From Nannobrachium achirus (lineage: Eukaryota; Chordata; Actinopteri; Myctophiformes; Myctophidae): DNA of 64,000 nucleotides. The stretch spans positions 56,674,142 to 56,738,141 of the forward strand of contig OY997651.1 of NCBI GenBank assembly GCA_963921795.1. The letters run 5' to 3'. Positions 6,832-63,308 of this stretch are shown piece by piece. A program made the position numbers and the translations under genes. A model generated the notes under the pieces. That model saw only the letters and a program-made list of their open reading frames with translations. It made no database searches and had not been told where the DNA came from. Numbering within the stretch: the stretch's first letter is position 1; every line of letters starts with the position of its first letter.

Positions 6832-7288
6832 CAGCGGTCTTCAACAGGAGGTCCGGGACCCCTAGGGGGTCCTCAGAGCTACAACAGGGGGTCCTCCAAA
6901 TCTTTGTGTGTTTTTTTATATTAACCACTTGAACCCTGGCGTCCCTATTCTGATATCTTTAGCCAAAAATAGCCGATCTACAAGCTCACAAGGCGTGAGC
7001 TTGTAGATCGGCTATTTTCAGCTAAAGAGATTTGGTGTAGAGGGGAAAAAGAGCAGACTAAGTACAGAATGAAAGGTAAAGTTTATTAAGTATTGATGGT
7101 TCAAGTGGTTAAATATCTGAAAACACAAATTGACATGAATCAATTTGTGTTTGTGACATGAAAAAAAAAATACAAAGATTATTATGCTATCAAATGATGA
7201 AACTATATGGTATATGGGTTGTGGGGGTCCCTGCTTCATCTCTTTCTTGACTAAGGGGTCCTTGGCCTGAAAAGGTTGAAGACCCCTG
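6832..7288. mobile_element. hAT-type MITE with 8-bp target duplication
   Basis: Inverted ends CAGCGGTCTTCAAC and GTTGAAGACCCCTG are flanked by perfect 8-bp copies of GTATAGAG at 6824-6831 and 7289-7296. CAG...CTG ends with 8-bp duplications are the hAT signature. It is non-autonomous, with no transposase. It carries one palindromic hairpin at 6966-7018. Confidence 0.88.
6966..7018. repeat. Palindromic hairpin, 24-bp perfect arms
   Basis: The arms start AAAATAGCCGATCTACAAGC and are exact reverse complements, 24 bp each, around a 5-base loop AAGGC. It belongs to the family described in the findings. Confidence 0.95.
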
Positions 7289-7388
7289 GTATAGAGGGTA
7301 TCTGCACATTTCTACAGTGACAATTTAAGGACTTTTTAATATAAACCTCTAAAATTACAAATGAAATATTGGCCAAATTGTCAAATAT

Positions 7389-7468
7389 TGTGTGTGTGTG
7401 TGTGTGTGTGTGTGTGTGTGTGTGTGTGTGTGTGTGTGTGTGTGTGTGTGTGTGTGTGTGTGTGTGTG
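7389..7468. repeat. (TG)n microsatellite
   Basis: About 40 TG units without interruption. Confidence 0.95.
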
Positions 7469-7579
7469 GCCACTGCACCTGTAAACAGAACTAAACACAT
7501 TTTAAATGTATTTTTTTTATAGTTATTAAAATCACTTTCAGGAAAAATGCTGCATTGGTAATAGCATACTATAAACCTA

Positions 7580-7860
7580 ATTTACATGGGGCCAAGCCAT
7601 GCCCATCCACACGCCCACCACAGGCGTGGAGGCGGGTCATGCCGGAAATGAAACGCAGCGGCCAGATTTGAAACGACGGGCCTCGGCGTTTCAATATCCG
7701 GGGGCCGAGGCCGTTCGCGGGCACACCGGGCCACGCCGGCGCGCCCCGGGCGCTTTTCTCGGGCCTGGGGCGGCACTGGCCCGGGGCTGTGGCAAAAGCG
7801 GGCGCCCCGGAGGCCCCCGGGGGGGCCAAGCGGGGGCAGGGGTCGAAAACCCGTAGAATG
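7580..7860. other. GC-rich block with no clear gene
   Basis: Strongly GC-rich compared with both sides, with several overlapping open frames that show proline/glycine/arginine-rich low complexity and no family motif. It lies directly upstream of a SINE and may be part of a composite repeat. I do not call a protein here. Confidence 0.4.
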
Positions 7861-7861
7861 A

Positions 7862-8100
7862 GCAGGTCCCAGTGGGAGGGTTGGCCAATGATCCGTGGGT
7901 CGGAGGTTCAAATCCCAGCTCCTCCTGTCAACATGTCGAAGTGTCCTTGCATGGCAAGACACTGAACCCCACATTGCCCCCAATGAGGTGGTTGGTGAAA
8001 GCTTGCAACCATTGGTGTGTGAATGTGGGTAGTGAGGACACTGGCGTTGAATTTTTGCTACTTCACTTCCCAATGTATGAATGAATGAACCATTATTACA
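7862..8100 (+). mobile_element. tRNA-derived SINE
   Basis: It contains a B-box-like GGTTCAAATCCC near 7907, then a body reading CATGTCGAAGTGTCCTTG and GACACTGAACCCC, a layout I recognise from fish tRNA-derived SINEs. The A-box region is weak, so the copy is aged. It is followed by a GAATGAATGAA tail. Confidence 0.65.
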
Positions 8101-8210
8101 AAGTAACAAGTTACTAAAGTTTTCAAATCATTGCAGCGGAGCAAAAGTACAATAGTTGCCTCTGAGATGCAGTCCTCCTTTGTGAAAAAGAAAAAGAAAA
8201 AAATAAAGTA

Positions 8211-8249
8211 GAAAGAAAGAAAGAAAGAAAGAAAGAAAGAAAGAAAGAA
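8211..8249. repeat. (GAAA)n microsatellite
   Basis: Tandem GAAA units in A-rich flanks. Confidence 0.9.
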
Positions 8250-8774
8250 AAAGAATCCCATCTACACGAGCACATATTGCCTGGAAGAAATAGATAGCCT
8301 TTTATTTCCCACAGAGGGAATTCAGGTGTCATACAGCATCACTGCAGTATGAGAGAAGAGGGGACAGATTGGTCATCTTCATCTCAATAACCTTTTTTAT
8401 ATAACAGTTGTAAGCAAGGGTGTCGCACCAAATTCTGGGCCCTGGGTACTAGCCTGATTTCAGACTCTGCGCTGGAGCTTAAGAGTCTGAGCCTGAGCCA
8501 TTGTGTTGAGATTTCAAAGGGGAGGGGATTTAAAAGCCACCCCTCCCTCCACTGTTTCTGTAGATTTTTTTCCGTCTTGCTTTGAATTCATTGGTCGGTT
8601 CGCCAAGATACGGCTTTGAACCGAATCAAGAGACTCGTCATATGACATATCCAGACCAAGAGAAGCAGTTCACTCAGAGAGTGGGCGGGTCTATTGGCTG
8701 GAGCCAGGCTACCTGGGTACAAGGATTCACAGCGGGCCCCCCATGAATCTTCTTATTTTGTGCTTTAACTATTG

Positions 8775-8847
8775 AAAAATAGCAGATATACAAGCTCACA
8801 GCACGGCACCGAGTGCCGTGCCGCGAGCTTGTAAATCTGCTATTTTT
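8775..8847. repeat. Palindromic hairpin copy
   Basis: Arms begin AAAAATAGCAGATATACAAG. The centre GGCACCGAGTGCC is itself palindromic. Near-perfect arms with a few mismatches. Confidence 0.92.
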
Positions 8848-9110
8848 GAAAAATCGTGAACATTTTGTGCAAGTCTTTGAATATTTCAAATCCTTGTAAG
8901 TTTTTTTTTTTGAAAACCCTATGTTTCTATGTCAGTGGTGCTCAAACCTTTTCATGTGAATGACCCGGAAAATGATATGTATTCGGCCACGGACCCCCAT
9001 CTCAAAATGTTTCGTTCCAGGGACCCCCAAGAGGCAAAATGTGAGTGTTCAAATGTTCGCTTAAAAAAATATATATATTCAAAGATTTGCACACATTTTC
9101 ATGACTTTTC

Positions 9111-9183
9111 AAAAATAGAAGATCTACAAGCTCGCAGCGCGGCACTCGGTGCCGCGCTGTGAGCTTGTAGATCTGCTATTTTT
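9111..9183. repeat. Palindromic hairpin copy
   Basis: Arms about 35 bp around the centre GGCACTCGGTGCC. One mismatch lies in the outer arm (TAGAAG against TAGCAG) and one in the middle (CTCGC against CTCAC). Confidence 0.92.
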
Positions 9184-61113: not shown

Positions 61114-61757
61114 GGTAAGACTATTTTCATGATTATTAGGCTTTTCTGTGTGACACCATAACTTGCTGTAATTGTTTTAGTTATTATTATTTTACTTGTA
61201 ATAGAACAGAAGTGGCTTAAAAATCAGGCATGGAGACGCTTTATTGAATATTTCATTTTATTACAATAGGAATACCGGTTACCGGGCATATCTCAGCCAG
61301 GTTATGGATATGGATCTAATGGATGTTGGCCGTGGCGGACACTGGACAGTCTCTTTCACTTTGACAGACTGCGACACATGTTTTGTCTTGTTTTGTGATA
61401 TACTGTATCTGATATTTTGTTGCTATGATTTTTTGCTGCTGAGTGGAGTCTTGCTGCATGCAATGTCTTGTGTTTTGTTAAAGAAAGAAATGGGTATCAT
61501 AACATTATGTATAATTACAGTATATCCATAAAAAAAAAAGTCACAAGTGTCTTAAAAGTATTTGTGGTTAGGCATATTGTTGATTGGCTGAGTGTGGTGT
61601 ATTTGCGCTAAATCTGTGGTGGAAATAAAGGTGCATTAATGTTAGTTATGGCTGGGCTTTCTTTTTCTTCCCTTAGGGGAATCCCTTTGCAGTAGAAAAG
61701 TGAATTTCACCGACCTATGTCGGCTGTCGGGTATATGTGTTGCGCACATACGCGCGC

Positions 61758-61786
61758 GGGGGGGGGGGGGGGGGGGGGGGGGGGGG
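61758..61786. repeat. G homopolymer, 29 bases
   Basis: An uninterrupted G run after CGCGCGC, near the 3' end of the hAT transposon. Exact length is often uncertain in such tracts. Confidence 0.85.
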
Positions 61787-61843
61787 CTGGGCGTGTCACT
61801 GGCCCAGGGGCCCGTTTTCTCATGGTCCGTCTATGCACTGACC

Positions 61844-62436
61844 TGGGGGATATTTGGTTTAAAAAAAAAAAAGCAATACTAATATAAATTTTAACTTAAC
61901 AAATCACCACCATACACTGACTTTGTCTGAAATTCCAAACAATTCACATGATATATATGGTAAAATAAACAGTGACATCCTTGACCTTTACGAAGTCGTT
62001 TGTCAGGTACATGGGTACGCATCTTGGAGGTGGAGGTGTAGTGCATCTTGTACACCAGGCCCATTGCAAGATGCTGTACTCTGTCAGCTACTTTGAGCCA
62101 CCCCACGCTTTCGCGGTGATGAACGGTTAGGTGCGCCCGAGGAGGAAGACCAAGCACGTGTCTCCTTTACAGTGAGATATAGACCCCTGGGAGATGATCT
62201 GCTGAGTTGGAGCAGTAATTACAGCACCGTCTTATAGCGCTAGCACTCATGCTGAATTGGCAGTGCGGGAGATCAAACTCAAATCCCTGCGATTCAAAGG
62301 CGAGTGTTGAGCTACCTACCTGTGCACAAGGAGTCAGTAAATCCATAATGTCATTTGGAGCGAGGCCATTTGAAGCTCTTAATGCTGTTGAATCAATTTT
62401 ATGGCATGGGACGAGGCTAAGCCCATCTACACCTTA
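61844..62436. other. No gene recognised
   Basis: The sequence around 61970-62160 has TACGAAGTCGTTTGTCAGG and 'CTTCCTCCTCGGGCGC' but no assignable frame. Confidence 0.35.
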
Positions 62437-62524
62437 CAGGGGCGTCACAAGGTGTGGGGGAGTGGGACTGAGTTACTAGGGCCCAAGGTGGAGGGGCCTT
62501 AGTTATTTTATACTTTAGATATTG

Positions 62525-62575
62525 AAAAATAGCAGATCTACAAGCTCACACTGAGCTTGTAGATCTGCTATTTTT
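62525..62575. repeat. Perfect palindromic hairpin
   Basis: 24-bp arms AAAAATAGCAGATCTACAAG + CTCA and their exact reverse complement around CAC. The GC-rich centre of other copies is absent. Confidence 0.95.
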
Positions 62576-62820
62576 GTGAAAATGTGTGCAAATCTTGGAA
62601 TATATCTATTTTTTAAGCGAACATTTGTAATTTTGCTTCTGGGGGTCCCTGGAACAAATATTTTGAAAGGGGGGTCCGTGGCCAAATACATATCATTTTG
62701 GGGGTCCTTGACATGAAAAAGTTTGAGCACCAATGACAAATAAACATAGGTTTTTCAAAAAACCTTAGAAGGATTTGAAATATTCAAAGATTAGCTTGCA
62801 CAGATTTTCACGATTTTCTA

Positions 62821-62895
62821 AAAAAATAGCAGATCTACAAGCTCGCAGCGCGGCACTCGGTGCCGCGCTGTGAGCTTGTAGATCTGCTATTTTTT
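62821..62895. repeat. Palindromic hairpin, one mismatch in 36 bp arms
   Basis: AAAAAATAGCAGATCTACAA arm, centre GCGCGGCACTCGGTGCCGCG. The only difference between arms is CTCGC against CTCAC. Confidence 0.95.
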
Positions 62896-62980
62896 CAATA
62901 GTTAAAGCACAAAATGATTGAAGTGAATCCTTGTACCCAGGGCCCAGACACCCCTGGCTAAGCCCATCTACAGTATAAGA

Positions 62981-63038
62981 CGGTCTGTCTGTCTGTCTGT
63001 CTGTCTGTCTGTCTGTCTGTTTGTCTGTCTGTCTGTCT
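62981..63038. repeat. (TCTG)n microsatellite
   Basis: About 14 tetranucleotide units with one TTTG interruption. Confidence 0.95.
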
Positions 63039-63236
63039 TTCATATATTCCCCGTTCATATCTCAGTGAACCATGACCCTGACTATGAAGCAGGCTGGTGG
63101 TAATTTTGTTGATAAAAGACTTTGACCTCAGATTTATCCCTGTTCAGTTTGTTATCCTACGTTTTATCATCTGGGCAGGCAAGGACATGATCTAAACTGG
63201 AACGTAACGATAGCTAGCCGAGTATGACTTTTTTTT

Positions 63237-63308
63237 AAAAATAGCAGATCTACAAGCTCACAACACATCGCAGCGTGACACAATGTGAGCTTGTAGATCG
63301 GCTATTTT
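63237..63308. repeat. Palindromic hairpin copy
   Basis: AAAATAGCAGATCTACAAGC arm, return GCTTGTAGATCGGCTATTTT; the centre is degraded (ACACATCGCAGCGTGACACA). Confidence 0.88.

Follow-up and report, generated by a model that had tools for sequence, protein, structure and literature searches.

Angel and other palindromic miniature inverted-repeat transposable elements (MITEs) of fish are imperfect palindromes, the arms of which are said to stay paired even where the sequences have diverged, and MADE1, a palindromic MITE of the mariner type, is about 80 bp long, very numerous and flanked by TA target duplications. The subject of the present analysis is a hairpin that recurs in a 64,000-nt stretch of the genome of the fish Nannobrachium achirus (assembly GCA_963921795.1, contig OY997651.1, positions 56,674,142 to 56,738,141; hereafter the window, with coordinates counted from its first base). 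Its likeness to Angel and similar elements is one of description only and, unlike MADE1, it has no direct repeat beside the palindrome in 13 contexts tested. The CAG..CTG ends and 8-bp target duplications of its hosts are those of non-autonomous hAT-type MITEs, from which the present case differs in that at least three kinds of ends enclose one common interior palindrome.

The nearest printed precedent that we found for interiors common to several MITE families is the CMITE group of corals (Wang et al. 2010, PMC2872659), whose interiors are conserved between families and were suggested to play a role in transposition; these elements carry piggyBac-like ends, and the accessible part of their description mentions neither a hairpin interior nor covariation of arms. 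Paired stem changes, inversion of the spacer and stems derived from copying one arm are described, in the available portions of the reports, for quasi-palindrome or template-switch mutations (Monttinen and Loytynoja 2022, PMC8794818; PMC8604942). These concern RNA genes, for which arm-to-arm copying has been inferred (PMC8794818), and yeast coding genes, whereas here a very large transposon family is involved, in which such events are rare per copy. A literature search, beyond whose reach lay most subscription papers, found no description of this palindrome.

In our preferred reading, to which we assign a probability of roughly 55% (the confidences of the explanations considered are not mutually exclusive), a conserved hairpin module with arms of about 34 nt and a 3-nt loop resides inside several families of short non-autonomous DNA transposons and would have been spread through the genome by transposases acting on the MITE ends. 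Each family would have been amplified from a founder hairpin already changed on both arms, and now and then template switching, in which DNA synthesis passes from one arm of the extruded hairpin to the other, may have preserved the match between the founders' arms. Such an event would double a change, invert the loop and possibly lengthen the stem by a few bases into the flank; well-paired hairpins were perhaps also favoured as founders.

The hairpin module and its host elements

The unit consists of AAAATAGC-M-GATCTACAAGCTCACARCGCGTCGC, a 3-nt loop and the reverse complement, i.e. 72 bases with arms of about 34 nt. A 20-nt arm pattern, searched with up to two mismatches, gave 361,282 + 360,916 = 722,198 matches in the 1.66-Gb genome, and the reversed control pattern 0 + 5; by rough arithmetic (about 34 nt per arm) the arms alone make up approximately 1.5% of the genome. 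A sample of 264 kb was composed of the window and 20 stretches of 10 kb at round coordinates, the choice of which, except for the window, was independent of the palindrome. The core GATCTACAAGCTC (up to two mismatches) was found there in 150 arms, compared with 6, 5 and 6 in three base shuffles. Alignment of these arms revealed a sharp onset of conservation at AAAATAGC, continuing through GATCTACAAGCTCACARCGCGTCGC, with little in common outside, and a core better conserved than the flanks. When distances of 30-46 nt were searched, the spacing from core to core was 40 nt in 48 of 62 pairs. Nine copies from the window, folded as single-stranded DNA, formed long hairpins (-24 to -44 kcal/mol; z from -10.6 to -16.8), matched by none of 200 shuffles of each. 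The palindromes are thus not chance occurrences. An Rfam scan of the window at the gathering score gave no match on them.

The outward flanks of 275 arms, a set including 40 loci picked for an exact arm, fell into 104 clusters, 79 of them with a single member, and the recurrent clusters correspond to about eight families, named A-E and G-I. The hairpin lies inside short repeat elements of several families, at least some of which are hAT-type MITEs. CAG..CTG terminal inverted repeats are present in copies from families A, B, D and I as well as at locus L013, in elements of 448-660 bp. Perfect 8-bp target duplications were found for (i) family A (ends CAGCGGTCTTCA..TGAAGACCCCTG, duplication GTATAGAG), (ii) family B (CAGTGTTGTTTC..AAATCAACACTG, GTCTTGAT), (iii) two copies of family D (CAGGGACGTGCT..AGCACGTCCCTG, GCTGGGAG and ATCCCTAC), (iv) family I (CAGGCACGTGCA..TGCACGTCCCTG, ACCTCTGT), and (v) L013, which has a D-type flank and other ends (CAGGGGTCAGCA..TGCCGACCCCTG, GTCTATAC); at locus L008 the 8-bp duplication has one mismatch. 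One hAT-like end each was seen in families C and H. CAG..CTG ends were not seen in families E and G, and no ends at all were found for G; family E we take to be of hAT type. The hAT-type ends of A, B, D and I fall into three kinds. Those of D and I are nearly the same, and A and C resemble each other at their right ends (GGCCTGAAAA.GTTGA..), so the families need not be unrelated.

Two hosts can be delimited in the window (no strand is assigned to features for which none is given). MITE A, 457 bp long, occupies 6832..7288, with the ends CAGCGGTCTTCAAC..GTTGAAGACCCCTG and the target duplication on both sides, and MITE B, with the ends CAGTGTTG..CAACACTG, its 8-bp duplication and a collapsed palindrome, occupies 25326..25800. 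The family-A palindrome is surrounded at 6921..7112 by an inner inverted repeat, TTAA-CCACTTGAACC .. GGTTCAAGTGG-TTAA, possibly a nested element of TTAA type. A TTAA bracket was present at 7 of 219 tested centres (control, 7 of 1000), in six cases formed by the TTAA-CCACTTGAACC repeat; the TTAA-flanked inverted repeat was found in family A only.

The window also contains, at 57289-59820 on the forward strand, an 843-codon reading frame with DUF4371, a domain common in hAT-like transposases. As a candidate autonomous hAT partner it was rejected, since no convincing ends with a fair target duplication were found around it.

Arm changes between and within families

CATGCTC/GAGCATG is diagnostic for family C and CAAGCACAC/GTGTGCTTG for family D. 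Both symmetric variants had been quoted correctly in the earlier note (for 10364 and 28812, respectively), which took them to mean that one arm is rewritten from the other or that the hairpin is selected as a structure. They are indeed not the outcome of random decay, but they mark whole hairpins amplified as families, a finding that the note itself had named as telling against its view. The family consensuses, made by hand (from 75 copies for B, 47 for C and 74 for D), differ by 11 distinct paired and 3 one-sided changes. Within these three families, 258 one-sided and 15 paired changes were counted in the same 196 copies, and the two ratios differ strongly (Fisher 1e-10). The first base after AATAGC in each arm (the X/Y site), where stem mismatches are frequent, was excluded from every paired and one-sided count.

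The clustering of arms, a test proposed in the earlier note, was examined in 46 full-length copies with rough family labels, and differences were averaged per 32 nt. The mean was 3.80 for the two arms of a single copy, 2.94 (same side) and 2.97 (opposite side) for copies of one family, and 6.94 and 6.92, respectively, for copies of different families. Arms within a copy were somewhat closer in C (3.17 v 4.27), D (1.75 v 2.58), A (4.33 v 5.50) and unlabelled copies (6.12 v 7.51), and farther apart in H (3.28 v 2.83) and G (2.75 v 1.79). There was accordingly no clustering by side and no consistent clustering by copy; the arms group by family. They differ together mainly between families and only rarely within single copies.

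In family C, 1175 stem pairs included 73 one-sided changes, 2 paired changes and 1 pair doubly changed yet unpaired; in family B the 1875 stem pairs included 137 one-sided, 9 paired and 6 doubly changed unpaired. Family D, with 48 one-sided and 4 paired changes in 1850 stem pairs, showed an excess of paired changes over the 0.42 obtained when arms were shuffled between copies (P 0.0007). Genome-wide, a D-type A-to-G change was one-sided in 416 hairpins, doubled in 14 (with four loop types) and absent from 16,317; 2.65 doubles were expected (P 8e-7, rising to 0.001 when twice that number is taken to allow for age heterogeneity). A D-type C-to-G transversion was one-sided in 85 copies and doubled in 1. 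Deletion products were varied in families A and C. In the families sampled, decay of a single copy mostly affects one arm at a time, and the hairpin is lost through many different deletions.

The loops, oriented by anchoring to the flank, occur in both directions in three families: AAC 26 / GTT 15 in C; AGC 39 / GCT 19 and AGT 6 / ACT 4 in B; and ACC 43 / GGT 19 in D. In family D the X/Y site stays mostly C..T when the loop is flipped (13 of the 19 GGT copies are C..T and 1 is A..G), which speaks for a constant orientation despite the short anchor. Moreover, the flanks prolong the stem beyond the shared block by a few context-specific bases, as seen in a set of 28 contexts and in another set of 13.

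Together with 8,092 hairpins mostly of family-C type, the 16,317 hairpins of family D whose inner stems are identical constitute a natural experiment on how often one arm is copied onto the other in the germ line. A direct lesson of the analysis is that arms which covary from one repeat family to another do not necessarily do so in each copy.

Weighing the explanations

Inversion of the spacer and matching of the arms are described, in the accessible text of two reports, as marks of template switching between inverted repeats (PMC8604942, PMC8794818). The small excess of paired changes, together with the two-way loops in three families, suggests that template switching from arm to arm has occurred occasionally in this hairpin as well, the mechanism being one that we infer from these traces.

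Several observations weigh against the template-switching reading. At the X/Y site, families B, C and D most often carry a mismatch (C..T or A..G) although the rest of the stem is matched, so matching of the arms is neither complete nor required. Among the consensuses compared, those of A, G, H and I come from few copies, and the inner half of the I consensus is an assumption. One of the 11 paired differences (AATAGC to AACAGC in D) falls within a stretch fixed by the anchor, where the within-family counts are blind. The excess of doubled changes is small: the 9 paired changes of family B, 7 of them at CpG, do not exceed chance (6.1 with arms shuffled between copies, P 0.15), family C gives a bare count of 2, and the single C-to-G double compares with 0.11 expected (P 0.1). 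Both doubles tested genome-wide had been selected after appearing in the 74-copy sample, and the unchanged count of the A-to-G site served for the expectations of both sites. Loop orientation is least certain in B, where the left anchor can match either flank. As regards the hosts, only 7 of the 170 hairpins or arms tested lie within hAT-type brackets, compared with 6 of 600 control positions. This is an enrichment, but most hosts have been truncated or have decayed, belong to another kind or lie outside the reach of the search; the single bracket of I or of L013 could be a chance match, and hAT transposition of the hosts is suggested by the sequence of their ends.

Next in standing, a tentative alternative compatible with the template-switching reading holds that selection acts on the structure of the hairpin, as a DNA cruciform or as RNA. 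Only well-paired elements would then be amplified, and founders would consequently show compensatory changes. The paired to one-sided ratio of 11:3 between families against 15:258 within them fits this explanation, as do the constant architecture with its 40-nt core spacing and the stronger conservation of the core. On the other hand, amplified elements carry the X/Y mismatch and, in H, two one-sided changes, and structural selection alone does not predict loop inversion; the hairpin is not known to have a function.

Somewhat less probable is a pure founder effect, by which whole hairpins were duplicated, diverged and were amplified as families with no arm-to-arm process. It accounts for the large families marked by symmetric variants, for arms grouping by family, for the dominance of one-sided changes inside families and for the lack of a paired excess in B. 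It leaves unexplained the 11 paired against 3 one-sided consensus differences, the two-way loops in three families, and the doubled A-to-G change in 14 copies with four loop types.

A more far-reaching and rather doubtful proposal is that several hAT MITE families of this genome, unlike in their ends, each took up the one hairpin, and that it promotes amplification in cis, for example through cruciform extrusion or hairpin-primed DNA synthesis. Elements carrying it would in this way have come to account for much of a genome that is unusually big, and their arms would be re-matched at founding and not during the life of a copy. We rate it lower because the closely similar ends of D and I and the similar right ends of A and C leave fewer independent acquisitions. 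If the hairpin does help MITEs to multiply, this would bear on why the interiors of MITEs, and not their ends alone, matter.

Improbable to a similar degree is the view of the palindrome as a mobile element in its own right, a palindromic MITE of the MADE1 kind, which would have moved into several other MITEs and now hitch-hikes with them. The sharp shared block between unlike flanks and the many flank contexts would agree with such mobility. However, no direct target duplication was detected around the palindrome in the 13 contexts (best z 2.1 of 144 combinations); its flanks there are inverted repeats, with z up to 5.6. Short gaps between the flanks numbered 250 in family C and 235 in family A, and the counts rest on the first 100 of each. 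Among these listed matches the gaps were filled mostly with differing hairpin remnants, and sites of the form flank-AAAATATTTT-flank accounted for 1 of the 100 in family C and 4 of the 100 in family A. One short form, recurring in 5 of the 100 in C, could be an old empty site, but it can also be explained as a deletion between AATAG words of the arm and of the right flank. Recent insertion of the palindrome into A and C is not supported by the gaps, and the mobility of the palindrome is already weakened as an explanation.

Finally, gene conversion acting continuously on the two arms in every copy, as proposed in the earlier note, fits the small doubled-change excess of family D (P 0.0007 in 74 copies), but as the main process in each copy it is ruled out by the one-sided majority (85:1 and 416:14 one-sided to doubled genome-wide, 258:15 one-sided to paired in the sampled copies), so that what survives of the idea of arm rewriting is the modest excess in D and the loop inversions, and a per-copy process is very improbable.

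Copies and neighbouring features in the window

The recurrent palindrome family reported in the earlier note is real, and 11 of the 14 coordinates listed there have both arms. Family H is represented by copies at 8772..8850 (listed as 8775), 19201..19289 (19209), 46538..46610, 62525..62575, which has a deleted centre, and 62821..62895, which has a 36-bp near-perfect stem and a 3-nt loop, as well as by 9105..9189 (9111), the second palindrome in one composite element. In this composite (8754-9270) a hAT-like end lies between the two palindromes, and the outer and inner flanks are mirrored. The remaining two-armed copies are 6966..7031 (family A, with a shortened centre, within the hAT-type MITE), 10364..10439 (family C, CATGCTC/GAGCATG), 28807..28895 (family D, CAAGCACAC/GTGTGCTTG; listed as 28812), 38616..38678 (family-H flank, rearranged centre) and 63237..63310 (family-B flank at the right, decayed centre).

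The other three listed copies retain a single recognisable arm, the partner having collapsed or decayed: 25536..25566 (forward strand) is a collapsed palindrome of family B, with the left arm retained and most of the right arm gone; 29041..29096 (reverse strand) has one good arm and a decayed partner; and 38694..38778 (reverse strand), with a family-B flank and a decayed partner, has its good arm at 38758-38777. Four further decayed pairs, absent from the earlier list, were detected at 1830..1890, 18598..18664, 19602..19660 (family-D flank) and 40064..40130 (family-B flank), which gives a total of 15 pairs in the window with up to four mismatches per arm.

Outside the window, identical shortened or variant hairpins are repeated locally at G000:C8:5993669-6128498 (four rows) and G000:C4:71349654-71351387 (three rows), which probably reflects segmental or tandem duplication.

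The window contains other inverted repeats, namely a further palindrome at 39731-39965 (117-nt arms, 93% complementary, 1-nt spacer) and long inverted repeats at 27525-27724 (69-nt arms) and 63844-63987 (64-nt arms). Reading frames with matches on the reverse strand comprise C2H2 zinc fingers (33874-34938), RVT_1 plus ALKBH8_N (42359-43195), DUF3504, below its cutoff (44072-44965), and Peptidase_S24 (26650-27348). The only Rfam match in the window at the gathering score was the UnaL2 LINE (long interspersed nuclear element) 3' element at 50524-50578 on the reverse strand.

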